Source of the DNA: Gammaproteobacteria bacterium
Lineage (GTDB): Bacteria > Pseudomonadota > Gammaproteobacteria > Steroidobacterales > Woeseiaceae
Length of the DNA stretch: 40,822 nt
Direction of reading: 5' to 3'
Assembly (NCBI GenBank): GCA_029863705.1
Contig: JAOTUU010000008.1
Location: forward strand, 1 to 40,822
Shown: positions 4,464 through 29,225 of the stretch, piece by piece
Position numbering within the stretch: the stretch's first letter is position 1
Layout of the letters: each line of letters starts with the position of its first letter
Translations under genes and position numbers: made by a program
Notes under the pieces: generated by a model
The model's input: the letters and a program-made list of their open reading frames with translations, nothing else
Told to the model about the DNA's origin: nothing
The model's database searches: none

Positions 4464-5852
4464 TTGAAAATGAAATTTATTCCTTTGTGGTTCCTGCTCT
4501 TCTCGAGTCTGGCTACACACGCCGCGGACCGGCCGAACATCCTTCTGATATATGTTGATGACCTCGGCTACGGCGATCTCGGTAGCTACGGGCACCCGGT
4601 GTTGCGGACGCCGAATATTGATTCGCTGGCAACTGATGGACTGCGGTTGACCAATTACTATGCACCGTCCGCATTGTGCTCTCCCTCCAGGGCGGGGTTA
4701 CTGACCGGCCGCCATCCATACCGGACCGGCATCAAGAGCTGGATTCCGGAAGACAGCGGCGTTTACCTGCGAGACGCGGAGATCACTCTTGCCGAAGTGC
4801 TAAAGGAGGCTGGATACGCGACAGCGCATATTGGCAAGTGGCATCTTAATTCGGATCTCAGTAACCGAACGGAACCGCAACCGACGGACCAGGGCTTCGA
4901 TTACTTTTACGGCCACAACGCGTTTCAGATTCCACACAATTTCAACCCGACGAACATTTACCGCAACAAAAAAGCGCTGCCCATGCAGGAAGGCTATACA
5001 GCAGACTTGTATGCCGGCGAAGCGATCAGGTGGCTTGAAAAGCGTGACCAGGATGAACCGTTCTTTCTGTACCTGAGCATGGCCGAGCCACACACATCGA
5101 TTGCCAATCCTCCCGAGTACAATGCGATGTATGCGCAGTACAGTCGCGGTAAGATCGAGCCAATCGTTAATGGCCTCAAGGATCCGCCAAAGGAATCTCT
5201 CGTGCCCCGCGGCCCTGGCGAGTATTACGCGAATATAACGTATATGGATGCCCAGTTAGGCCGGGTGCTTGGCTGGTTGCGCGATCATAAACTCGAGCAG
5301 AACACCGTCGTTGTATTTTCGAGTGACAACGGTGCGGTCACGTCGCAGTGGATCAACTGGTGGGAAGTCAATGCCTACGGCAGCACGGGCGGTTACCGCG
5401 GCCGCAAACACTATCTTTACGAAGGCGGCTTGAAAGTACCGACCATCGTTCGCTTCCCCGGTGTGGTCAAATCCGGGTCTGTCTCGGATGCGACGGTGAT
5501 CGGTATGGACCTCTTCGTAACCCTTGCCAATATTGGTGGCGGCAAGGTGCCGGACGACCGCGCTATTGATGGAATCGATATCCAGCCGATTTTTCGTGGC
5601 GACGATTTGCCGCAACGAGGCCTGTTCTGGGCCCTGGACTCGGTGTCTGACCTGGAGTTCGCCATCCAGAAAGAATCCTGGAAGTTGTTGTTGGACCGAG
5701 ATCAGGAACCGCGGGAACTTTACAATCTCGCCGACGATCCGCTCGAATTCTTTAACCTGATTAGTAAAGAACCCGCCAAGACCAGGGAACTCACCGATGA
5801 GGCTGCAAAACACCTTGCCGCAATTGCCAACGACCCGTTGCGGCCAAACTAG
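4464..5852 (+). CDS. Sulfatase (arylsulfatase family), exported
   Basis: Signal peptide MKMKFIPLWFLLFSSLATHAA; RPNILLIYVDDLGYGDLGSYG; CSPSR formylglycine motif; GKWHLN; SSDNGA. Confidence 0.93.
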   Translation: MKMKFIPLWFLLFSSLATHAADRPNILLIYVDDLGYGDLGSYGHPVLRTPNIDSLATDGLRLTNYYAPSALCSPSRAGLLTGRHPYRTGIKSWIPEDSGVYLRDAEITLAEVLKEAGYATAHIGKWHLNSDLSNRTEPQPTDQGFDYFYGHNAFQIPHNFNPTNIYRNKKALPMQEGYTADLYAGEAIRWLEKRDQDEPFFLYLSMAEPHTSIANPPEYNAMYAQYSRGKIEPIVNGLKDPPKESLVPRGPGEYYANITYMDAQLGRVLGWLRDHKLEQNTVVVFSSDNGAVTSQWINWWEVNAYGSTGGYRGRKHYLYEGGLKVPTIVRFPGVVKSGSVSDATVIGMDLFVTLANIGGGKVPDDRAIDGIDIQPIFRGDDLPQRGLFWALDSVSDLEFAIQKESWKLLLDRDQEPRELYNLADDPLEFFNLISKEPAKTRELTDEAAKHLAAIANDPLRPN

Positions 5853-5868
5853 ACTCCGGATCTACGCA

Positions 5869-7269
5869 ATGAAATCAATAATCGCGATCGTCGCACTACT
5901 GTTCACCCACTCGGCCGTCGCGGACTGGTTCGATGACCTCAGGAATTCAGGCAATGCGGCAGACCTGTATCGCGTGCTGTATTACATGCCTAAGGGTGGC
6001 GACTTGCACAACCACCTGTCCGGGTCGAATTTCTCCGAATGGTGGTATGAGTTGGCGCTGGCCCAGAAAGAACGCGGCTATCACTACTACACCAAGGTAA
6101 GAATCGAAAACTGTGTCGCGTATGGCCGCAACCAGTTCGGTCACTCTCCCTACTATCTGATGTTCCGCAACATTATGGCTTCTCAATACGAACGCCTCAG
6201 CGATTGTGAGAAGAGCGAGTACAAACCACTTGGGCAGCTCAACGAGGACGAAAAGGCAGGTTGGCTAGCCAGTATTCAACTTGACAAGCCCTACGAGGGC
6301 CGCGAGGAGTTCTTTGGCACGCATTGGCCACGCCTCAATGCCCTGACAAAGAACCCCTTTATCCAGGCGGAGAGCCTATATCGCAATATGCAGGCATTTG
6401 GCGCGGAGGGTCTGAGCTATCTCGAGACTATGGTCGCTGTGTACGGTTTTGCCGAGCCGGACGGCGGCACGATCACAGCGGAACAGGTGGTAGATGTTCT
6501 ACGCCAGCGCTTGCGGCAAAAGGACGCCATCGCTACTGGTGTAACGGTGCGCTTGCAGCTTCCAATCCTGCGGTTCCTGCCGGACGCAGAGGAACAGCTC
6601 CGCGGTGTCTATGAGCTGGTGCAGAATAATAGCGACGTCTTTGTCGCCGTAAACATGGTTGGTCGTGAGGACAACGACAAAGGCCATCCACGACGTTTTC
6701 TTGCCACCCTCAGAGACCTGCGCCGAAAATACAGCGACGTCAGGCTCTCGATTCATGCCGGAGAGGTCGACGAACCCAACAATCACGTCCGCGATACGTT
6801 GCTACTGGGCGCCGACCGCATTGGGCACGGCATCAACCTGATTGGCGATGACGATACGATGTTGCTGATGCGACATGGCCCGTACATGGTGGAAATCAAC
6901 CTGATCAGCAATCTGCTACTGCAGTACGTTAACGATATAAACGAGCACCCGTTCCCCGAATACCTGAGGACGGGCATTCCGGTCGCGTTATCGACCGATG
7001 ATCGCGGGATGTGGGACTCGACGATGACAGACGAATTTTTTGTCGCTGTTACGGAATTCAAGCTCTCCTGGGATGAGGTCAAGACGCTGAGCCGAAACTC
7101 GCTCCAGTATTCGTTCGTTGCGCCGCGATTAAAACAGGATTTGCTGCAGGACTTCGCCAGCCGAATTTCAAAATTCGAGCGCGGCATGGAAAAGTACGGG
7201 CTTAAGGAGATTGGCCCGATGCCGCCAACCCGTTCGTTTATCTGCAAGCGCTACGAACTCTGCAATTAA
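5869..7269 (+). CDS. Adenosine deaminase family protein with signal peptide (ADGF-like)
   Basis: Start MKSIIAIVALLFTHSAVADW at 5869 within the listed ORF 5797-7269; HNHLSGS, SIHAGEVDEPNN, RIGHGINL and STDDRGM motifs. Confidence 0.88.
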   Translation: MKSIIAIVALLFTHSAVADWFDDLRNSGNAADLYRVLYYMPKGGDLHNHLSGSNFSEWWYELALAQKERGYHYYTKVRIENCVAYGRNQFGHSPYYLMFRNIMASQYERLSDCEKSEYKPLGQLNEDEKAGWLASIQLDKPYEGREEFFGTHWPRLNALTKNPFIQAESLYRNMQAFGAEGLSYLETMVAVYGFAEPDGGTITAEQVVDVLRQRLRQKDAIATGVTVRLQLPILRFLPDAEEQLRGVYELVQNNSDVFVAVNMVGREDNDKGHPRRFLATLRDLRRKYSDVRLSIHAGEVDEPNNHVRDTLLLGADRIGHGINLIGDDDTMLLMRHGPYMVEINLISNLLLQYVNDINEHPFPEYLRTGIPVALSTDDRGMWDSTMTDEFFVAVTEFKLSWDEVKTLSRNSLQYSFVAPRLKQDLLQDFASRISKFERGMEKYGLKEIGPMPPTRSFICKRYELCN

Positions 7270-9626: not shown

Positions 9627-11216
9627 ATGCGTGCCTCTCGTTTTTCAAGTCTGCTCCTGATCTTCGTCTTTGCGCTGGTCTCATGTAACAGCAGCGACAC
9701 CGGACAAAGCGCGACTCAATCTCCCGCGACCGAAGACCAGATCGTAACTCTGCTATTTACCAATGACGTCGAAAGTGCCTACGACCCTATACCGGCGTTT
9801 TGGCTGGACGATATTTCGATGATCGGAGGGATCGCTGAAATCACCACTCTGATCGAGTCGCTCCGCGAAACAGAGCCGAACGTATTTCTGTTCGATTCGG
9901 GCGATATTTTCACCGGAGCGCTGGCGAAACTCACGCTGGGCAAACTTGCTTTCGAACTCATGATAACGATGGGCTACGACGCCATGGCGATCGGCAATCA
10001 CGAATTCGAGTACGGCCACAAGATATTTGCGTGGGAGAAGAACAGAGCACCGTTTCCGGTTCTCGGCGCCAACTTCTACTACAAAGACACTGACCACCCC
10101 TACGCCCAGGCGCATGCAGTCATCGAGCGCAATGGCCTGCGCATCGGTGTAATCGGCATTATGGGACAGGACGCCGTCTCAGCCATCATTCCGTCTTACA
10201 TCGCCCCTCTGGATGTCCGCGATCCGGCCGACGCGGTTCGCAAGTCCGTTGCCGAATTGCGAGACCAGGTGGATCTTATCGTCTTGCTGACACATCAGGG
10301 TAAGACTGCGCCGATGCAAACTGACGCCGAATCGGATCCGAGGTTACAGCGAGATATCGACGCTGATATCGCACTCGCCGGCGCCGTCGAAGGCATTGAC
10401 GTCCTCTTTGCAGGACATGCCGATGCCGGAACACCAGAGCCAGTCGTCCACCCCGAAACCGGGACACTGATCATGCAGACGTACGGACAGGCAACGCATC
10501 TCGGCTATCTGCAACTCCGGCTGGATCGCGAGACCGGCGCCATTACAAGTTACGACGGCAAACTGATCCCGGTCGAATCTTCAAAACTCGACCCGGACCC
10601 GAGGATGCTCGCCAAGTTGAAGCACTATCGGGACCAGAACGCGGAGATCATGGCCAAGGTGGGTGCAACAGAGGCAGCAATGATTCGCCGCTATATCGAG
10701 GAATCGGATATCGGCAACCTGTTCGCCGATATCTTCGTAGCAGTAAGTGGCGCTGATATCGGGTTTGTGCACGGCGGCAGCCTGCGCAAGGATTTACCCA
10801 AGGGCGACATCCGCCTGGTGGATATCCTCGACTCTTACCCGTTTGTCGACGATGTGAATGTGAAAGAAATGAGCGGCGCACAGATTCGTCGTGCGCTGGA
10901 ACAATCGCTGACGTTTGAGCGCGGGATGCTGCAACTATCGGGACTCGAGATGATCTACGACCTGGATCAACCTGAATACAGTCGCATTGTGTCACTGAAA
11001 CGGAATGGCCAGCCGGTAGTCGACAGCGATCGCTTTACCGTGGCTGCACCTGGATTCCTGACCGAAGGCGGCGACCTTTACGATTCCTTTCCCGAATCTG
11101 AAGTGATTCAAAGTTTCGGCAAGGTATCCGATGTCATTATCGAGCACTTTCGCAACCACGAAGTTGTCAGCCTGCCCAAACGCGGTCGACAGTTGGAAAC
11201 TGTAAAAAGTCAGTAG
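9627..11216 (+). CDS. UshA-like 5'-nucleotidase/metallophosphatase lipoprotein
   Basis: Lipobox FALVSC; VTLLFTNDVESAY; DSGDIF; GNHEFEYG; LTHQGK; FAGHADAG; C-terminal 5'-nucleotidase domain 'HGGSLRKDLPKGDIRLVDILDSYPF'. Confidence 0.9.
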   Translation: MRASRFSSLLLIFVFALVSCNSSDTGQSATQSPATEDQIVTLLFTNDVESAYDPIPAFWLDDISMIGGIAEITTLIESLRETEPNVFLFDSGDIFTGALAKLTLGKLAFELMITMGYDAMAIGNHEFEYGHKIFAWEKNRAPFPVLGANFYYKDTDHPYAQAHAVIERNGLRIGVIGIMGQDAVSAIIPSYIAPLDVRDPADAVRKSVAELRDQVDLIVLLTHQGKTAPMQTDAESDPRLQRDIDADIALAGAVEGIDVLFAGHADAGTPEPVVHPETGTLIMQTYGQATHLGYLQLRLDRETGAITSYDGKLIPVESSKLDPDPRMLAKLKHYRDQNAEIMAKVGATEAAMIRRYIEESDIGNLFADIFVAVSGADIGFVHGGSLRKDLPKGDIRLVDILDSYPFVDDVNVKEMSGAQIRRALEQSLTFERGMLQLSGLEMIYDLDQPEYSRIVSLKRNGQPVVDSDRFTVAAPGFLTEGGDLYDSFPESEVIQSFGKVSDVIIEHFRNHEVVSLPKRGRQLETVKSQ

Positions 11217-12380: not shown

Positions 12381-13829
12381 ATGCAACTGAAAAATAAAGA
12401 TTTGTTGTTGACCGACGGCTGGATCAATGCAGCGGAGTTTCGTTCAAAGCGGCAGTTCGCTGTAGATGACCCCGCCACACGCGAAGACATCGCAACGGTT
12501 AGCGATCTCGACGCGACGCACGCGAAGCAGGCAATTGCCGCGGCAACAACAGCATATGGCCATTGGAAAACTGTTCCCTCGCAGGAACGGATCCATGCCG
12601 TTCTGCGTTGGGCGGAACTAATTGAGGAGAACGCCGAAGACCTGGGTGTAATCATAAGCACCGAGAGCGGCAAGCCGCTGCGCGAGGCAAAAGGTGAATC
12701 CCTGCAGTGCGCGGCGTTGTTGCGCTGGTACGCCGATGAAATCCAACGGTGGAACACAGACAATCGTCCCGCGCCTGTTTCGGGTCAGCAAAACTATACG
12801 ATCAAGCAGCCCGTCGGCGTCGTTGCATGTATTACGCCATGGAATTTCCCGGCGGCCTCGGTGATCGTTAAGGCCGGTGCCGCCATCCTTACTGGCTGCA
12901 CGACCATTGTTAAACCATCCGACCTGACCCCACTTATCGCACTGGCATTCGCGCGTCTGTCTGCCGCCGCAAACCTGCCTGCCGGCGTTTTCAACGTACT
13001 GCCCTGCAAAGACCCGACGGAAATCGGCAACGAGCTTTGCAGCAATCCGGATGTACGCATGCTGTCGTTCACCGGGTCGACCCGGGTGGGCAAGAAACTC
13101 TATGCCGCTTGTGGCGATACCGTTAAGCGACTCGCCCTGGAGTTGGGAGGCAATGCGCCGTTCATCGTATTCGATGACGCGGACCTGGATCTGGCGATTG
13201 ATGGCGCGATAGGCGCCCGCTATTACAACAGCGGCCAAATATGCGTCGGCGCCAATCGCTATTTTGTGCACAGTAGCGTTTACGGAGAGTTCGCGCGCAG
13301 GCTCGCAGACCGTGTCAGCAAGATGCAAGTCGGTAACGGCTTCGACCCATCCAGCGACATCGGCCCGATGATCAACCAGGCAGCGATAGACCGTCTGACG
13401 CATGTAATTGAAAGCGCGACCGAAATGGGCGCCGAAGTACTTGCGGGCGGTGGCCAGGACGATGCATCGACATTGTTTTTTCAACCCACCGTATTAATCG
13501 GCATGACTCCCGACATGCCGGCATATACAACCGAAATCTTTGGTCCCGTCACCTGCCTGTACGAATTCGAAAACGAAGATCAGGTCGTGGCGCTTGCCAA
13601 TAACACTGAAGCCGGCCTGGCTGCGTATGTCTACTCGCGTGATACCAGCCGCCTCGCAAGAGTTAGCGAAGCGCTGGAAGCGGGTGTCGTGGGTGCAAAT
13701 TCATCCTCAATCTTTGCCAACGACTTGCCGTTCGGTGGCATCAAGCAATCCGGCCTTGGCCGGGAGCATGGTTCCCAGGGGCTTGAGGAATACGTCGAGA
13801 CGAAAAGTATCTGCCTGGTGTCGCAATGA
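12381..13829 (+). CDS. NAD(P)-dependent aldehyde dehydrogenase (succinate-semialdehyde dehydrogenase-like)
   Basis: 'VACITPWNFPAASVIVKAGAAILTGCTTIVKPSD', 'LALELGGNAPFIVFDDADLD', 'NSGQICVGANRY'; ATG at 12381 preferred (the track start at 12369 is TTG). Confidence 0.92.
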   Translation: MQLKNKDLLLTDGWINAAEFRSKRQFAVDDPATREDIATVSDLDATHAKQAIAAATTAYGHWKTVPSQERIHAVLRWAELIEENAEDLGVIISTESGKPLREAKGESLQCAALLRWYADEIQRWNTDNRPAPVSGQQNYTIKQPVGVVACITPWNFPAASVIVKAGAAILTGCTTIVKPSDLTPLIALAFARLSAAANLPAGVFNVLPCKDPTEIGNELCSNPDVRMLSFTGSTRVGKKLYAACGDTVKRLALELGGNAPFIVFDDADLDLAIDGAIGARYYNSGQICVGANRYFVHSSVYGEFARRLADRVSKMQVGNGFDPSSDIGPMINQAAIDRLTHVIESATEMGAEVLAGGGQDDASTLFFQPTVLIGMTPDMPAYTTEIFGPVTCLYEFENEDQVVALANNTEAGLAAYVYSRDTSRLARVSEALEAGVVGANSSSIFANDLPFGGIKQSGLGREHGSQGLEEYVETKSICLVSQ

Positions 13830-14398
13830 CGACGGAACACCAAAGCTGTCGCTCCGCCTTTATGCACATGAGTGAAGTCAGCAAGAGGCAACAAGTTCGC
13901 AATTTCGTCCAGTCACTGGATATGAGCGATTACCTGGTCGAGACGGACCTCTTTCCCAGAGAGGTGCTGGAAGCATACAGCGCACTCAATATGGAAATGA
14001 AAATCACCGACGAGCAAGCGCAGTACGTGGACGAGCAGCGGGGTGGCTCTCAGGGCAACTATCGCGAAGGCATGAAGCAAAAGATTGCAAACGTGGTTGA
14101 TTGCCTGGCCCACTATCCGCAATCAAAGCGTGCGGTAATTACCGTTTGTAACGAGCCTATGCCCGAACACAGCGATGACGCGAATGCCAAGTGTCTGCGT
14201 GAACTACACCTTTATCTGGATGAGGAAGACAAGCTTAGCGGTACTGTGTTCTTCCGTGCCCAGGCGGCTTTCCTGTTTCCGAAGAACATCCATCTGATCG
14301 GCTCGATAATGTCGGAGATAGCACGGCAGCTGCCACAGAAACCAGCATTGGGAAGTTTGTTCTATCTGGCAACGGTACTGGTTGCGGATCGGTCTTAG
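13826..14398 (+). CDS. Small thymidylate-synthase-like protein (tentative fold assignment)
   Basis: ATGA overlap with the upstream ALDH stop; 'SKRAVITVCNEPM...NAKCLRELHLYLDEEDKLSGTVFFRAQAAFLFPKNIHLIGSIMSEIARQL' parallels the ThyA core 'RRAIVSLWN...PCHxxFQFYVxDGKLSCQLYQRSxDxFLGLPFNIASYA'. Confidence 0.55.
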   Translation: MTTEHQSCRSAFMHMSEVSKRQQVRNFVQSLDMSDYLVETDLFPREVLEAYSALNMEMKITDEQAQYVDEQRGGSQGNYREGMKQKIANVVDCLAHYPQSKRAVITVCNEPMPEHSDDANAKCLRELHLYLDEEDKLSGTVFFRAQAAFLFPKNIHLIGSIMSEIARQLPQKPALGSLFYLATVLVADRS

Positions 14399-15318
14399 AC
14401 CTGAATACCGTTCAAATCACACATGGCGCCCAATGCGATGCTGATGGCGCCCTCCACGCTGGCTGCGTAATCAAGAATAGCGGTACTGGCTGTCGGCTTA
14501 CTGATGATGGGACATATAGTGCCAACCAGGCAGCCCAGGTGGCCGGCAACATGAAACAACAAGCTTGACTCCATTTCCATATTTACGACCCTTTGGTCCT
14601 GCACCTGCAGATCAGACAGCTGTGTCTTGATGGACGGGACCGTATTCACAAGACCCTCTATGTATCGGCCAGACGGCCCGTAGAAACCCGGCGTCGCGGC
14701 GGTGATCCCGGTGACGTAATCGACATTCAGGGAGCTTGCGCGGTCAGCCAGTGCGGCCACTACGCTCGGCGAGGCCTTGGCGGCGTAAGGGATTATTTTG
14801 CTCCGGAACCTCGCAGCCTCCGAAGTCGAATTTACAAGTATTTCAAATGCTTGCCGCTCAATATCTGTGACGACCTGGTCGGCTGGCGGATGATCGTAGT
14901 ACAAACCGGCGTTATCCAGCCCGAGCGCATAAGTTGATATCGCCATTGTTCCCGGTTCGATATCGTCCTGGGTTCCTGCAGAGGTCCCGATGCGGATGAA
15001 TTTCAGCGGCGCTGTTCCCGACCGATACTCGCTACTGTCGAAATCGAAAGCATGCACCGTGTATGCTTCGACCAACGCGATTTCGACGTTGTCGACCCCG
15101 ATGCCGGTGCCAATAACGGAAACCGGCATACCCTTGTAACTACCCGTAAAAGTGACGTATTCCCTGTGCCTTACTTCGGCACTGACAGTGTCGAATCGTT
15201 TGGCCACCCGAGTCGCCCGAGCCGGGTCACCCACCAGGAAAACATTTGCAGCCAGTTGACCCCTGGTCAGACCGAGATGGAGAACCTTGCCATCAATGAC
15301 GACGATCTCTGACTTCAT
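14395..15318 (-). CDS. udp: Uridine phosphorylase / nucleoside phosphorylase family (PNP_UDP_1)
   Basis: 'VFLVGDPARATRVAKRFD', 'VIGTGIGVDNVEIALVEAY', 'IRIGTSAGTQDDIEPGTMAIS', 'VVNMEMESSLLF'; ATG at 15318 preferred over 15402. Confidence 0.85.
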   Translation of the reverse strand: MKSEIVVIDGKVLHLGLTRGQLAANVFLVGDPARATRVAKRFDTVSAEVRHREYVTFTGSYKGMPVSVIGTGIGVDNVEIALVEAYTVHAFDFDSSEYRSGTAPLKFIRIGTSAGTQDDIEPGTMAISTYALGLDNAGLYYDHPPADQVVTDIERQAFEILVNSTSEAARFRSKIIPYAAKASPSVVAALADRASSLNVDYVTGITAATPGFYGPSGRYIEGLVNTVPSIKTQLSDLQVQDQRVVNMEMESSLLFHVAGHLGCLVGTICPIISKPTASTAILDYAASVEGAISIALGAMCDLNGIQV

Positions 15319-15369
15319 ACTTGAAAATACCCGGCACGTGAGAAATGTGTTAATGAAGATTATTACACT

Positions 15370-17169
15370 TTGCTGGCGGCGCGACGATTGAGTGACATAC
15401 ACATACTAATTATTGGCGGTGCATCACTCGACACGCTGGATGGTGCTGATCAGCTGGTTGCCGGCGGCGCCGGTATGTACACAGCAATGGCATCGCGGCG
15501 CAGCGGCGCGTCGGTTACTTTGTTCGCACCAAGGCCGGAACCGGTTCCGGCCGCCCTGCAGCAGGTTGCCGCGAGCGTGTCGTGGCTCGGTCCGACCGTC
15601 GCGCAGCAAGACCTGCCACATTTTGAGATAACACACCGGGATGGCGAGACCCGATACGTGCAGGCACGCTTTGGCGCGGAGGCGTCGATATCACCGGCGA
15701 GTCTGCCCGCCGATCTGTCCGGCTTTGACTGCGTCCATCTTGTGCCGCTCGGCAATATCCGCAACCAATACGATTTTATGCTCGCCTGCCGCGCAAATGG
15801 CGCACGCAGGATATCTGCCGGAACCGCCCTTGATTTGATTGACGAACAGCCGGATGACGCGTCTGCTCTCTTGGATGGGGCGGACTTCTTTTTCATGAAT
15901 GAGAAAGAGGCCGTACGCTTGTTTGGATCGATGGCTGCAGTCAGGTCCCGAACCGGGCAGACGATTTTTGTTACCCAGGGCAGTGATGGTGCGACGGTTG
16001 TGCAGGGCGACATTGCTACTCAGTTACCCGGCGTTGCGGCAACAGTCCGGGATCCGACCGGCGCTGGGGACACCTTTTGTGGCGCAACACTTGTCGGCTT
16101 GTCACGAGGTCATCACCCGGTCATGGCGGCGCGCAATGCGATGCCACTTGCGGCACAAATGATCGGAGACGTCGGACCGGCCGCACTATTGCTCTCATCG
16201 CCGCCACCAGGCTCACCGACTGACGAGCGTGTAGTTGTTAGCCCTGCACAGATAAGTCGAATCGCTGCGCTGATATCCGAACTCGAGGATGTCACGCCAT
16301 ACGCATTTACAGGCCCTGACCTTCCGAGGCCTGGTCACCCGGCATCGCTTGATTATTTCTTCGCGTCAACGCTACAGCAGTTCAGCTTCTGGTCGACGAA
16401 CGGCGGTCGATACGAACGCCCGCTGGTCGCCACCGTCGACGGAGAAGAACGCAAGGGTGCGTTCTATCTGTTTCGTGCCTATCTCCGCTGGCTCGAAAGT
16501 AGTCCGGAGATGCTAACGCCCGCGGGCCAGGCGGAACTGAGCAACGCAGACATGAAGGCAGTGTTTCGCGCCGATGACGGCACGCATCCGATGCCCGCCC
16601 TCGAATTACACCTGCAGTTGGCGCGCCAGTACGGGCGCGACATGCTGGCGCTCGGTCTGACGCCGCAGGAGGTGCTGGAGCAGGTCAATACCTCAGCTAC
16701 GCCGCTGCGCACGCTGTTTCAAATCCTCGATCATGTCGGCGGTTACAAAGAAGACCCGCTGCGAAAAAAGGCGGCGCTACTGGCCATCATCTTGCAGCAA
16801 CGGCCGGAAGCGTTCCTTGCCAGCCGCGAAGACAAAGTGCCGCCCGTGGTCGACTACCATGTCATGCGCTCCTGCCTGCGCACCGGCCTGGTCGACGTGG
16901 TGGACAACGAGCTCGCGAGCAAGTTGGTCGGGCGACAACTATTGTCCCAAGCCGAAGAGTGGGCGGTGCGAAACGCCGCACACCATGCCGTTGAACGCGT
17001 CGTCTCTGAATCAGGTAAGAGCATGGGCGCGGTGGACTGGTTCTTTTTCCAGGCGCGCAAACGCTGCCCCGAAATGACTGAACCACGCTGCAGCTTTTGT
17101 GCGGTCGAACCTGTTTGCGCCAAGCGCAAAGAGCTTTTTCAACCAGTACGCAGGACGAGCTTTTACTGA
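15370..17169 (+). CDS. PfkB-family kinase fused to a Qng1 (queuosine-nucleotide N-glycosidase/DUF2419)-like HhH-glycosylase-fold domain with C-terminal EndoIII-type Cys cluster
   Basis: PfkB: GGAGMYTAMASRRSGA, NEKEA, DPTGAGDTFCGA. Qng1-like: LDYFFASTLQQFSFWS, KGAFYLFRAYLRWL, FRADDGTHPMPALELHLQLARQYGRDML, DPLRKKAALLAIIL, VVDYHVMRSCLRTGLV. Tail CPEMTEPRCSFCAVEPVC (C-x7-C-x2-C-x5-C). The start is TTG at 15370 or, more likely, TTG at 15388 (MSDIHILIIGGASLD). Confidence 0.75.
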   Translation: MLAARRLSDIHILIIGGASLDTLDGADQLVAGGAGMYTAMASRRSGASVTLFAPRPEPVPAALQQVAASVSWLGPTVAQQDLPHFEITHRDGETRYVQARFGAEASISPASLPADLSGFDCVHLVPLGNIRNQYDFMLACRANGARRISAGTALDLIDEQPDDASALLDGADFFFMNEKEAVRLFGSMAAVRSRTGQTIFVTQGSDGATVVQGDIATQLPGVAATVRDPTGAGDTFCGATLVGLSRGHHPVMAARNAMPLAAQMIGDVGPAALLLSSPPPGSPTDERVVVSPAQISRIAALISELEDVTPYAFTGPDLPRPGHPASLDYFFASTLQQFSFWSTNGGRYERPLVATVDGEERKGAFYLFRAYLRWLESSPEMLTPAGQAELSNADMKAVFRADDGTHPMPALELHLQLARQYGRDMLALGLTPQEVLEQVNTSATPLRTLFQILDHVGGYKEDPLRKKAALLAIILQQRPEAFLASREDKVPPVVDYHVMRSCLRTGLVDVVDNELASKLVGRQLLSQAEEWAVRNAAHHAVERVVSESGKSMGAVDWFFFQARKRCPEMTEPRCSFCAVEPVCAKRKELFQPVRRTSFY

Positions 17170-17219: not shown

Positions 17220-18725
17220 ATGCTCAACGGAAAACATCTCATTGCCGGCAGCTGGGTCGCTGGTGAATCGACGTTTGAAAACGCGCCTGTTTTGGGCGCT
17301 GTCGACCAATTCGCAGTTGCTACTGCGGATCACGTCGATGCGGCGGTGCTTGCGGCCGAGCAGGCATTCTTGTCCTATGGAAATTCGAGCAGAAAAGATC
17401 GAGCGGCATTCTTGCGCACGATCGCAGACGAATTAGAGTCACGCGGTGAAGCCATTACCGCGATCGGCATGCGGGAAACGGGGCTTCCGGAAGTGCGCCT
17501 GAACGGAGAGCGCGGTCGAACCGCTGGTCAATTCAGGCTCTTCGCCGATCATATTGAGGCCGGTGATTATCTGGATCGAAGACATGATGAGGCCTTGCCG
17601 GATCGCGAACCGCTGCCGCGACCTGACCTTCGCTTGATGCAGCGCCCGGTGGGTCCGGTTGCTGTTTTCGGTGCGTCGAACTTTCCGCTCGCCTTTTCGG
17701 CCGCGGGCGGTGATACGGCCGCGGCCCTCGCGGCAGGATGTCCTGTTGTAGTCCGAGGCCACTCGGCTCACCCCGGGATATCTGACCTCGTGGCGCAATC
17801 CGTCGATGCTGCAATCAAGACCTGTGGCATACATCCCGGAACGTTCTCCCTGATTCAGGGTGGGGATCACTCGGTCGGTCATGCCCTCGTCAGCCATCCC
17901 CTGATCAGGGCTGTCGGATTCACTGGCAGCCTGGCCGGAGGGCGCGCACTGTTTGATTTATGCGCCGCTCGCCCGGAGCCCATTCCGTTTTTTGGCGAGC
18001 TCGGTTCCGTTAACCCAATGTTTCTGCTTCCCGCAGCACTTGCCTCGCGTAGTGAGTCGATCGCCATCGGGTGGGCCGAATCGTTGACCATGGGGGCGGG
18101 CCAGTTTTGCACAAACCCCGGTATTGCTGTGCTTGCCAGGGGAAGCGACGCTGACGCTTTTGTTGTTGCTGCCAAGGGTGCTTTGAACAAAGTCGAAGCC
18201 CAAACCATGCTGACCGATGGCATCGCTTCTGCATTTCGCGATGGCCGCGAAGACATGCAAGCCGTGGCTGGTGTGACTGAGGTACTCGGTAAGACCTGTG
18301 GTGGTCGCAGCGTAGAGCCGTATCTCTTTGTCACAAGCGGTGAAGACTGGTTCGCGAACGAATTATTAAGCGAAGAAGTCTTCGGCCCGCTTGGCATGGT
18401 AGTGATCGCCAAAGACGCGGATGAAATGATCGCCATCGCAGATGCTCTCAAAGGCCAGCTAACCTGCACACTGCATATGGACGACGGTGACACCGAGTTG
18501 GCTCGAACGCTGCTGCCAATACTTGAACGCAAAGCAGGTCGAATTCTAGCCAATGGATTCCCGACGGGCGTCGAAGTTTGCGACTCAATGGTCCACGGCG
18601 GACCCTATCCCGCGTCGACGAACTTCGGCGCAACTTCAGTCGGTACTATGTCCATCCGACGGTTTCTCAGGCCGATCGCGTACCAGAACATACCTACAGA
18701 GATTCTCCCCACAGACTTGATTTGA
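17220..18725 (+). CDS. Aldehyde dehydrogenase, alpha-ketoglutaric semialdehyde (2,5-dioxovalerate) dehydrogenase-like
   Basis: 'LNGKHLIAGSWVAGESTF', 'RPVGPVAVFGASNFPLAFSAAGGDTAAALAAGCPVVVRGHSAHPG', catalytic 'FFGELGSVNP' and 'GAGQFCTNPG'. Confidence 0.88.
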   Translation: MLNGKHLIAGSWVAGESTFENAPVLGAVDQFAVATADHVDAAVLAAEQAFLSYGNSSRKDRAAFLRTIADELESRGEAITAIGMRETGLPEVRLNGERGRTAGQFRLFADHIEAGDYLDRRHDEALPDREPLPRPDLRLMQRPVGPVAVFGASNFPLAFSAAGGDTAAALAAGCPVVVRGHSAHPGISDLVAQSVDAAIKTCGIHPGTFSLIQGGDHSVGHALVSHPLIRAVGFTGSLAGGRALFDLCAARPEPIPFFGELGSVNPMFLLPAALASRSESIAIGWAESLTMGAGQFCTNPGIAVLARGSDADAFVVAAKGALNKVEAQTMLTDGIASAFRDGREDMQAVAGVTEVLGKTCGGRSVEPYLFVTSGEDWFANELLSEEVFGPLGMVVIAKDADEMIAIADALKGQLTCTLHMDDGDTELARTLLPILERKAGRILANGFPTGVEVCDSMVHGGPYPASTNFGATSVGTMSIRRFLRPIAYQNIPTEILPTDLI

Positions 18726-23104: not shown

Positions 23105-23971
23105 CTAGATATACACCGCCGGTGTAATCACATTCTGAATGCCTGCCGCACGTAGACGTTCGGCGGCCATCTCGACACCGGCCTGCGGCATCTTCTCCCA
23201 TTCCAGCGCTTTACCTTTGACGCCATGATGTTGAAAGGCATTCAGTTTGATGCGGACGTCTTTTCCAAGCGACCCGACAAACTCGATCAACTGGTTCAAC
23301 TCGGCGTCGTTATCGGTTTTGCCGGGGATCAAAAGAAACCGCAATTCATAGAGTTTTCCGGCCGCGTACAGCATCCTGGCTGCGCGAAGACTACGTTGAT
23401 TGCTCTTGCCGGTTAGTCCCTCATGCAGAGAGTCGTCAAATGCCTTTATGTCGAGCATTACGCCGTCTGTAACACGCATTAGCTTCGTCCAGTTTTCGGC
23501 ACCCAGGTGACCGTTGCTATCGACAAAACAGCTAAGGCCTGCGATATCCTCATCCGATTTGACGGCTTGAAACAGTTCGCTGATGAATTTCAGTTGCTGC
23601 GTAGGTTCGCCGCCGGATACCGTGATGCCGCTCAAGAATGGCCGGTGCTTGCGGATCAACTCCAGGATATTCGCGATGCTGTATTGCCGCACCATCGGGT
23701 TGGCGCTGATCGGACACACGTCAATACAGGCGTCACATGAATCGCAGGCAATAGGGTCGAACGAAATCTTGCCGTCCACCAGGGACAATGCGTCGGCGTG
23801 GCAGGCAGGAACACATTCGCCACAATGATTGCAAACGCCAATCGTATGGGGATTGTGGCAAGCCGAGCAATTGAAGTTACATCCCTGCAAGAAGATAACG
23901 AGTCGGTTGCCCGGCCCGTCTACGCACGAATAGGTCAGAATTTTACTGACTGTAGCCTGGGCGGAGCTCAT
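23105..23971 (-). CDS. yjjW: Glycyl-radical-enzyme activase, YjjW family (radical SAM plus ferredoxin-like clusters)
   Basis: 'CVDGPGNRLVIFLQGCNFNCSACHNPHTIG' radical-SAM CxxxCxxC; CNHCGECVPAC and CDSCDACIDVC; 'SGGEPTQQ'. Adjacent to yjjI. Confidence 0.87.
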   Translation of the reverse strand: MSSAQATVSKILTYSCVDGPGNRLVIFLQGCNFNCSACHNPHTIGVCNHCGECVPACHADALSLVDGKISFDPIACDSCDACIDVCPISANPMVRQYSIANILELIRKHRPFLSGITVSGGEPTQQLKFISELFQAVKSDEDIAGLSCFVDSNGHLGAENWTKLMRVTDGVMLDIKAFDDSLHEGLTGKSNQRSLRAARMLYAAGKLYELRFLLIPGKTDNDAELNQLIEFVGSLGKDVRIKLNAFQHHGVKGKALEWEKMPQAGVEMAAERLRAAGIQNVITPAVYI

Positions 23972-25478
23972 GACTCATGACTCGAGGTTTGCGCTCAAGA
24001 ATATTCACTATGTCGGCAGCTTCCGCGCCCAACGCAGTGGTATTTGTGCGCGAACCTTTTTCCTCGTTAAATTTCTTGATGTCTGACAAACGGATCATGA
24101 AACCGGTCACACGCACCAGGTCATTGCTTGCAACATTGACTGTGAATTCACGGAATCCGCAGGAAAACGCACCTTTGCAAAGTTGTTGCATCGCTTCCGG
24201 ATTGTTCTTGATGGTTTCATCCAGTGTCAGGATTTCGCTGATCCCGGATTCATAGTATTGATGGTGTGGCGCAAGCGCCTGAATATGCATCACCGGATCC
24301 GGTTCGGTACCGTAGGGAATCCGCACACCAGGCGTTGCTTCTTCATCATTGCTCAGTCCTGCCTGCGCGTGCAGCATGGCACGGCCTCGCCAGACATTCT
24401 TCATAGGCCGCCGCTCGACAGCTTCTGCCAACACCCTGGAAATCCTGTGGCCCAGTGCGTTCGCGAGGTCGTCAAATCCATATCGACCGGCCCGACCTTC
24501 CTTGTCCTGCAGCACGTTGACCGCCTCGGCCATTGCGTAGATGCCATACATCGCGGTGAATCGATCTCGCTCTATCCAGCCCTCCTCAACAAGGAAACTT
24601 TCGAAGAAATTGGATTCGTCAAACAGAAACTTTATCCGGTTTTCAGCAAGCCGGAAATTCATCTCCATGTAATGTGGAAGCACGCGGTCAAAGAAGTCTG
24701 CTTCGCCTTTCGAGCGCAGGGCAACTTCCTTCAAACTGAGACGCGTCAAGGTCGACGAACCGCCGGCAACAGGCAGAGCGTTGTAGCAACTTACGATTCC
24801 GTAGCCACGTTCGTCGAAAGTCTCGACGTGCATCGGATGGTTCGCGATATGCGGCTTCGAGCATTCAACGATGCTGTTTGTGGCGATGGCCAGTATCTGC
24901 TCGCTACTGACTTGCGGATCATAGAAAAACGTCAGGTTCGGTGCGGTCTGCTTCAGCTCGGAATCAACCCGCAAAATGGTACGAGCTACCCGATTGTCCG
25001 TCGGACCGATGTTGGCGTGCATGAACGCATCGGGCAAGGTGCGATCAAGATAACGCCAGAATAATTTTATCTTCTTGTAGAGTTCGTCATCATCCACACC
25101 GTCGCAGAACGGCAGTAGCAGATCATCCAATTGGCCTAAGTAGACTGGCATGCCTGTGACAGACGGGACGTGGTGATAGGCAATCATCAATGTGTTGATC
25201 GCCTCATCGAGGGTCTCGGGCACGGGCAGTTCCAGGTACTCGCTGCCATGCTTGAGCACAATGCTGTAGTCAGGCAACACGTAGCGTGGCTTGTAAGGCG
25301 CATGTCCCTCATACAGATCGCAGATCACCCGCTCATCCAACGCCTGTTGCGTATCCGTGTCCAGGGCCGGATACGGCAGCATATTCTCGGCCTCGAGCGA
25401 CAGGTAGTGCGCCTTCTGCGCTGGGCTCAAGGTCTTGTCAGTTGTGATTTCATGCAGCTTGCGAGTGATTTCTTGCAC
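23943..25478 (-). CDS. yjjI: Glycyl radical enzyme, YjjI family
   Basis: 'GIVSCYNALPVAGGSSTLTRLSLKEVA' (candidate active-site Cys) and C-terminal glycyl-radical loop 'VRVTGFMIRLSDIKK'; partner of the YjjW-like activase; GTG start at 25478. Confidence 0.85.
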   Translation of the reverse strand: MQEITRKLHEITTDKTLSPAQKAHYLSLEAENMLPYPALDTDTQQALDERVICDLYEGHAPYKPRYVLPDYSIVLKHGSEYLELPVPETLDEAINTLMIAYHHVPSVTGMPVYLGQLDDLLLPFCDGVDDDELYKKIKLFWRYLDRTLPDAFMHANIGPTDNRVARTILRVDSELKQTAPNLTFFYDPQVSSEQILAIATNSIVECSKPHIANHPMHVETFDERGYGIVSCYNALPVAGGSSTLTRLSLKEVALRSKGEADFFDRVLPHYMEMNFRLAENRIKFLFDESNFFESFLVEEGWIERDRFTAMYGIYAMAEAVNVLQDKEGRAGRYGFDDLANALGHRISRVLAEAVERRPMKNVWRGRAMLHAQAGLSNDEEATPGVRIPYGTEPDPVMHIQALAPHHQYYESGISEILTLDETIKNNPEAMQQLCKGAFSCGFREFTVNVASNDLVRVTGFMIRLSDIKKFNEEKGSRTNTTALGAEAADIVNILERKPRVMSHELRPGYSQ

Positions 25479-28025: not shown

Positions 28026-29225
28026 CTAAAGAAAACTCGTGCCGTAGTCCGTTGGCGGCAGGTCAAAAAACGTCGCAATGCTTTGACCAATATCGGCAAA
28101 GGTCTCACGCTTGCCCAGGGCACCGGCTGTAACGCCCGCGCCATACGCCAACACAGGGATGTGCTCACGCGTGTGGTCGGAGCCGGGCCATGTCGGGTCG
28201 CAGCCATGGTCTGCACAAAGGAACAGCACATCATCGTCCTGCATGATGTCCAGCAACTCCGGGAGACGTTGATCGAGGTATTCGAGCGCTGTCGCATAGC
28301 CTTCTGCATCGCGCCTGTGGCCGAATAGCATGTCGAAGTCGACGAGGTTGGTAAATATGATGGTGCGATCGCCGGCTTCACGCATCGCATCCAGCGTCGC
28401 ATCAAAGAGCGCCGCATTGCCCGTCGCTTTGATCTTCTTCGTAATGCCCCGGTTCGCGTAGATATCGGCGATCTTGCCAACACTCACGACATCGCCCCCG
28501 CTGGCTACCAGCTTGTCGAGCACGGTGTCCGCGTGGGGGGGCGTCGTTAGATCACGGCGATTGCCCGTACGCACATAGGTATCGGGCCCATCGCCAACGA
28601 ACGGACGCGCTATCACTCGACCGATGTTGTAGTCATCCACCAGCTCTCTGGCGATGTCGCATAGATCATAAAGGCGTTGCAGGCCGAATGACTCTTCATG
28701 GCACGCGATCTGGAATACGCTGTCAGCTGACGTATAAAAAATCGGCTTACCAGATGCCACGTGCTCATCACCAAGCTGCTGAATGATGGTTGTTCCGGAC
28801 GAATGGCAGTTGCCGAGGTAGCCCGGCAAATCTGCACGTATTACTAATTTATCGAGCAACTCCTGCGGAAATGTATTGGTCTTGCCGGTGAAGTAGCCCC
28901 AATCGAATAGCACGGGGAGGCCTGCGATCTCCCAGTGACCACTGGGCGTATCCTTGCCACTCGAAAGTTCTTCGGCGAAACCGTAGGCGCCGGTAATCTC
29001 AACGTCGGTATCCACACCTGCGGGAAATTCACCGGCGCTATCGCGGCCAGCATGGAACAAGCCGAGTTTCGCGAGATTCGGCAAACGCAGCGGCCCGGCT
29101 GAAGAAGCTGCACGCCGCTCCGCGATGTGACCCATTGTGTTCGAACCAACATCACCGAATCGCTCGGCATCAGCCGTCGCGCCTATGCCAAAGGAATCGA
29201 GTACCAGAATTATTGCTCTGCTCAT
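28026..29225 (-). CDS. deoB: Phosphopentomutase
   Basis: '[36 protein letters not shown]', '[17 protein letters not shown]', '[15 protein letters not shown]', '[26 protein letters not shown]'. Confidence 0.95.

Follow-up and report, generated by a model that had tools for sequence, protein, structure and literature searches.

A PfkB nucleoside-kinase-like domain fused to a Qng1-like N-glycosidase domain in bacteria that tend to lack queuosine-precursor genes

Introduction

The salvage enzyme Qng1 acts on queuosine-5'-monophosphate (PMC11592518), and in the literature we found no dedicated kinase is named for this 5'-phosphorylated substrate. A 40,822-nucleotide stretch of a Woeseiaceae genome (the window) raises the question of whether one polypeptide can serve both steps, and for which base. 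A preliminary description of the window, made from its letters, proposed that one open reading frame joins a PfkB kinase to a Qng1-like N-glycosidase with an EndoIII-type Fe-S tail, and that it may salvage queuosine. Here we examine this protein, its relatives and the genomes that carry it. Neither a PfkB-Qng1 fusion nor an Fe-S Qng1 was described in the literature that we searched, which included few subscription papers; the Qng1 family and PfkB kinases are themselves known.

A conserved two-domain protein

The frame at 15370-17169 on the plus strand runs uninterrupted for 599 residues, the numbering used here. Because alignments to homologs begin at residues 7-12 and a TTG at 15388 is conserved in the fusion locus L021, the true start is probably this TTG at about 15388, giving a gene at 15388..17169 (plus strand) and a protein of 593 residues. 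Both halves scored above curated Pfam cut-offs (PfkB, E = 2.4e-18; Q_salvage PF10343, E = 1.5e-8, 35 bits against a cut-off of 25), and the AlphaFold model of the whole protein had a pLDDT of 91.7. We identified the fusion family at 67 loci in Gammaproteobacteria (Woeseiaceae-type), Chloroflexota, Marinimicrobia, Bacteroidota (Flavobacteria), Acidobacteriota and Gemmatimonadota, with full-length identity of about 45-86% across most of them; a search for viral and plasmid relatives returned none. As both domains occupy a single frame on dozens of unrelated contigs from six phyla, a frameshift or assembly artefact is ruled out, and the frame is confirmed as a real conserved protein and a genuine fusion. 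A few Chloroflexota carry stand-alone C-terminal domains (L081, L083-L085), beside which we recognised no adjoining PfkB gene.

The N-terminal half (PF00294; residues 10-281, 15397..16212, plus strand) contains the PfkB signatures picked out in the preliminary description, GGAGMYTA (32-39), NEKEA (177-181) and DPTGAGDTFCGA (228-239). The segment DPTGAGD (228-234; 16051..16071, plus strand) corresponds to the anion hole of PfkB kinases and ends in D234, their catalytic Asp. Residue counts across 54 fusions showed the glycine motif and the TGAG anion hole to be invariant (54/54), with D234 an Asp in 52 and a Glu in 2. With PF00294, the GG motif and DxTGAGD with its catalytic Asp all present, the domain has the features of PfkB family membership. 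A profile of this half matched best to PDB entry 3kd6, a C. tepidum nucleoside kinase (E = 2.7e-16). It also matched E. coli YdjH, BthNK and MJ0406 at better than 1e-10, with 3h49 also among the best. These matches make nucleoside specificity likely: most of those past the 1e-10 level are nucleoside kinases (the PDB names of 3kd6, 3b1q and 2c49 say so). By fold, however, ribokinases score well too. The fusion thus shares its signature motifs and catalytic Asp with PfkB nucleoside kinases such as Burkholderia thailandensis BthNK, Chlorobium tepidum 3kd6 and MJ0406, which are the best sequence matches of its kinase half and good fold matches. Unlike them, its kinase is joined to an N-glycosidase-like domain.

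A Qng1-like C-terminal half

The C-terminal half (residues 285-599; 16222..17166, plus strand) resembles Qng1 by both sequence and fold. In a Foldseek search of the PDB with its AlphaFold model (pLDDT 90.4), the 11 best matches were all Qng1, human or S. thermophilus (TM 0.73-0.79), and EndoIII and MutY ranked after them (E of about 1e-3 versus about 1e-11 for Qng1). Identity to Qng1 in the structural alignment was 16-19%. HHalign comparison with 25 canonical Chloroflexota Qng1 proteins gave a probability of 97% (E = 6e-11) over 278 columns. Together with the Q_salvage match, these results uphold the proposed Qng1 likeness, with EndoIII and MutY as the next best families.

We then located the expected catalytic residues. 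R465-K466-K467 (16762..16770, plus strand), the equivalent of Qng1 K199, and D495 of the VDYH segment (16852..16854, plus strand), which corresponds both to D231 of Qng1 and to the Asp in EndoIII VDTH, align with the KR and ADYK segments of canonical Qng1. The RKK triplet, and with it the Lys/Asp pair anticipated from the letters (K466/K467 and D495), is invariant in 54/54 fusions. The corresponding Qng1 positions appear in PDB titles as the mutants K199C (7u5a) and D231N (7ulc). D556 (17035..17037, plus strand), invariant in our alignment A1, is the HHalign equivalent of the active-site residue D298. In the canonical protein L112, the spacing of K248, D280 and D347 (32, 67) equals that of K199, D231 and D298 in S. 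thermophilus Qng1.

The fusion therefore has in common with Qng1 (DUF2419/PF10343; human and Sphaerobacter thermophilus, 7ugk, 7u07, 7u91, 7ulc) its fold, the Lys/Asp pair (K199, D231), D298, the FxFW segment and a C-terminal R-T-x-x-Y. It differs in its joined kinase, in a tail with four cysteines absent from canonical Qng1, and in residues near the FxFW motif and at W302. Qng1 uses D298 and W302 as active-site residues (PMC11592518), and HHalign places F560 of the fusion at W302. Five residues near the FxFW motif that are invariant in canonical Qng1 (N107, D113, N116, W128 and Y140 in L112 numbering) are replaced in the fusion by D, T, Q, Y and A/S, and these replacements suggest that base recognition is probably changed. 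Because neither these residues nor W302 are kept, the C-terminal half is best classed as a member of a Qng1-like superfamily and not as a Qng1 ortholog.

Queuosine-pathway genes in fusion-bearing genomes

The suggested link to the queuosine pathway gained its support from the gene content of 39 genomes with the fusion family and 53 fusion-less relatives. Tgt was present in 36/39 and QueA in 37/39 of the fusion-bearing genomes, with QueC above the cut-off in 8/39, compared with QueC in 46/53 (45 above the cut-off) and QueA in 51/53 of the relatives. Within the window's group, 40 genomes carry QueA; QueC was absent from 10 of the 12 of these with the fusion (one, G008, is a contig-edge fragment) and from 2 of the 28 without it (Fisher, 4.5e-6). 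A Pagel test on the QueA tree also correlated the fusion with QueC loss (LR 22.6, p = 1.5e-4), a correlation that rests on this single-gene tree and on only two well-supported independent pairs; genomes with the fusion and no QueC fall in several places in the tree. QueE is missing together with QueC in fusion genomes. The base importer QPTR is missing from 7/12 genomes with the fusion versus 3/28 without (Fisher, 0.003; Pagel, p = 0.07). The window's own genome has Tgt, QueA and QueF and lacks QueC, QueE and QPTR, by gene content a preQ0/preQ1-salvage set in the terms of PMC11570991.

One fusion-bearing genome, G061, retains a trace of the loss. Remnants of QueC are joined out of frame to remnants of QueE (L187:1369-1613; G061:C25) at the ancestral site, whose two neighbouring genes enclose queC-queE in relatives, and this fossil indicates that the pathway was lost in G061. 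Since the fusion tends to occur where queuosine-precursor genes have been lost, it probably recovers queuosine-precursor bases from nucleosides. It is not only a replacement, because some genomes carry both the fusion and QueC (two genus mates, and sampled Acidobacteriota and Gemmatimonadota). Chloroflexota proved uninformative as a second phyletic test, as QueC is rare there anyway (55 of 301 genomes); the fusion occurs in few of the sampled genomes of that phylum. Many Chloroflexota genomes with QueC also encode canonical Qng1, which suggests a role for it in recycling Q, beyond auxotrophs alone.

We consider it fairly likely that the fusion is a bifunctional salvage enzyme, a nucleoside kinase and 5'-nucleotide N-glycosidase that would free a 7-deazaguanine base for Tgt. 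Evidence on the identity of this base comes from the downstream genes. Among 16 main Tgts compared, 15 carry the preQ1-type motif GG[LV]xVGE and not GG[LS][AS]G. QueF is present in every gammaproteobacterial and Marinimicrobia fusion genome tested, which points to preQ0, and its absence from most Chloroflexota and from Flavobacteria with the fusion would fit preQ1 or queuine. Because most Tgts are preQ1-type and the window's lineage retains QueF, we consider preQ0/preQ1 no less likely than queuine. An independent hint for preQ0/preQ1 is a preQ0/preQ1 transporter gene beside qng1 in an Acidobacteriota bacterium, an arrangement that its authors found unexpected (PMC11130926).

The Qng1 homology of the C-terminal half would also suit an enzyme that, like Qng1, takes queuosine to queuine by phosphorylation and cleavage, after which a QueL-type lyase would turn the queuine into preQ1 or Tgt would insert it directly. 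Substrates for such an enzyme would be at hand, as queuosine, Q-3'MP and Q-5'MP are products of tRNA turnover (PMC11130926), and a preQ1-type Tgt can take queuine at high concentration (PMC11570991). The predominance of the preQ1-type motif (15/16) nevertheless speaks against it, as do the replaced Qng1-invariant residues near FxFW and the retention of QueF, which neither queuine nor preQ1 salvage would need, in all the gammaproteobacterial and Marinimicrobia fusion genomes tested. One genome looks like a case of queuine use: the fusion-bearing Chloroflexota genome G078, whose Tgt has GGSLG without the preQ1-type Val (L104; G078:C137:194326-195534), lacks QueC, QueF and an above-cut-off QueA, and may use queuine directly. 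Overall we regard the queuosine-to-queuine reading as unlikely, and on the same evidence the earlier suggestion of queuosine itself as the substrate is not supported. Anaerolineaceae with the fusion family also carry a second, divergent Tgt paralog in which GYGGWPLD replaces GGLxVGE (L099, L100, L101, L102).

Gene neighbourhood

The window is a nucleoside-catabolism island. It encodes an adenosine-deaminase-like protein, a UshA-like 5'-nucleotidase that is a probable lipoprotein (lipobox-like LVSC; 9627..11216, plus strand), a nucleoside phosphorylase divergent from the fusion (PNP_UDP_1, E = 1.5e-26; 14395..15402, minus strand), the phosphopentomutase DeoB (above its NCBIfam cut-off; 28026..29225, minus strand), a 5'-deoxyadenosine/MTA-type deaminase and TonB receptors. 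An aldehyde-dehydrogenase-like gene (Pfam E = 1.5e-44; 17220..18725, plus strand) lies 50 bp downstream of the fusion and is conserved beside it in L021 and L028, and the phosphorylase adjoins the fusion also in L021, L026 and L029. In Woeseiaceae a surface-type 5'-nucleotidase gene is linked to the fusion: in L028 and L074 the UshA frame abuts the start of the fusion or shares 4 bp with it, and lies 26 bp away in L030. Recurrent neighbours are taxon-specific, with UshA, the aldehyde dehydrogenase and the phosphorylase in Gammaproteobacteria and SurE, an MGMT-like gene and holA in Chloroflexota; SurE, another nucleotidase, is often near the fusion in Anaerolineaceae loci. The island also holds a YjjW activase and a YjjI glycyl radical enzyme (23105-25478; above NCBIfam cut-offs), conserved in L021, and a 190-residue protein with weak likeness to thymidylate synthase (13826-14398; NCBIfam 7e-5), the order of which is conserved in L021 and L029. 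A conserved neighbourhood with queuosine genes is ruled out to a distance of about 8 kb, since no fusion locus has a homolog of Tgt, QueA, QueC or QueE that close.

These surroundings, with their 5'-nucleotidase, nucleoside phosphorylase, adenosine-deaminase-like protein and phosphopentomutase and no nearby queuosine gene, would also fit a carbon- or ribose-scavenging enzyme akin to PsuK/PsuG, which would act on some other phosphorolysis-resistant nucleoside unrelated to queuosine and pass ribose-5-phosphate to metabolism. Such a role does not predict the loss of QueC and QueE, with its fossil, in fusion genomes, and the Qng1-like character of the C-terminal domain also counts against it; we hold it to be improbable.

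A model for nucleoside salvage

In the 7-deazaguanine salvage route that we favour, extracellular nucleotides would be dephosphorylated and the resulting nucleoside taken up, after which the kinase would trap it for cleavage. With ATP, the PfkB domain would phosphorylate such a 7-deazaguanine-type nucleoside at its 5'-OH, and the HhH/Qng1-type domain would hydrolyse the N-glycosidic bond of the 5'-monophosphate through the Asp495/Lys466-467 pair, releasing free base and ribose-5-phosphate. The base would then pass to QueF, Tgt and QueA, which would use it to modify tRNA; most of the cells concerned no longer have de novo synthesis. We infer the two reactions, and their order, from the pairing of the domains: because Qng1 acts on queuosine-5'-monophosphate, a joined 5'-kinase would supply the Qng1-type 5'-phosphorylated substrate within the same polypeptide. 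Because phosphorylases act through N7, they cleave 7-deazapurine nucleosides poorly, and this would account for a hydrolytic route of its own next to the phosphorylase gene.

There is precedent for this order of steps. In pseudouridine salvage, the PfkB kinase PsuK makes the 5'-phosphate and the glycosidase PsuG then frees the base and ribose-5-phosphate. The fusion would follow the same phosphorylate-then-cleave logic with a Qng1-like glycosidase, whereas PsuG belongs to an unrelated C-glycosidase family. A bacterial enzyme known to release a queuosine-pathway base from a nucleoside is QueK, the Clostridioides difficile queuosine nucleosidase (PMC11130926), which is of a protein family unrelated to the fusion and differs from it in substrate specificity, with no kinase step known.

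We put forward more tentatively, as a possibility that the data allow us to take seriously, a specific form of this model: that the one-protein route frees preQ0/preQ1 and not queuine, that it replaces both de novo synthesis and base import, and that it is carried out by an Fe-S Qng1-like enzyme preserving a step between EndoIII-type glycosylases and eukaryotic Qng1. As the fusion is associated with loss of QueC/QueE, its function is open to direct testing; the association also suggests that many uncultured bacteria may depend on 7-deazaguanine nucleosides from their neighbours.

The four-cysteine tail and its resemblance to EndoIII

The tail of the protein reads C566-x7-C574-x2-C577-x5-C583 (17065..17118, plus strand), as first described. 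From their conservation and profile alignment, the four cysteines are predicted [4Fe-4S] ligands at the EndoIII position. They are invariant in 54/54 fusions, in the stand-alone C-terminal domains that reach the tail and in two divergent proteins, L142 and L144, at 31-36% identity. Canonical Qng1 has no such cysteines, its IPDM being directly joined to RPYHRTRTIYY; at the same place the fusion has CPEM, about 20 residues bearing the cysteines, and then LFQPVRRTSFY. A profile of the last 140 residues found EndoIII first in the PDB (E = 0.011) and then Qng1, and in its alignment to EndoIII the four-Cys motif follows the VDxH segment in matching order.

Compared with the EndoIII/MutY HhH-GPD glycosylases, which carry a [4Fe-4S] cluster, the fusion thus shares the Asp of the VDxH segment and the order of the C-terminal cysteines. 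It departs from them in the first Cys spacing (x7, as against x6 in the EndoIII motif C-x6-C-x2-C-x5-C), an extra N-terminal Qng1 region and the joined kinase. Pfam HhH-GPD gave no match in the window protein and a non-significant one (E = 0.11) in L024, and L142 has matches to Q_salvage and also to AGOG, a family of DNA glycosylases (1.7e-4). By these comparisons the fusion family is intermediate between Qng1 and the Fe-S DNA glycosylases. Its C-terminal loop would bind a [4Fe-4S] cluster that came from an EndoIII-like ancestor and was lost in canonical Qng1; if so, the human and other eukaryotic salvage enzyme would descend from Fe-S DNA glycosylases.

A nucleotide-pool or DNA-repair glycosylase that removes a damaged base, with the kinase as its salvage partner, is very unlikely: the Fe-S motif and Asp do align with EndoIII, and HhH-GPD and AGOG do surface in L024 and L142, but Qng1 is by far the better match by fold and Pfam, free nucleotides are the substrate to expect beside a joined 5' nucleoside kinase, and the association with queuosine genes stands against it.

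Further relatives extend the family. The divergent Chloroflexota Qng1-like proteins L142 (L142:797-1903) and L144 (L144:1347-2879) have extra cysteines in addition to the same four, and AGOG matches both weakly; in L144 the Qng1-like part lies in frame behind a GIY-YIG domain. At L145 (G110:C33), two more divergent Q_salvage genes (407-1549 and 5651-6862) lie within 7 kb in opposite orientation, each with a cysteine-bearing tail.
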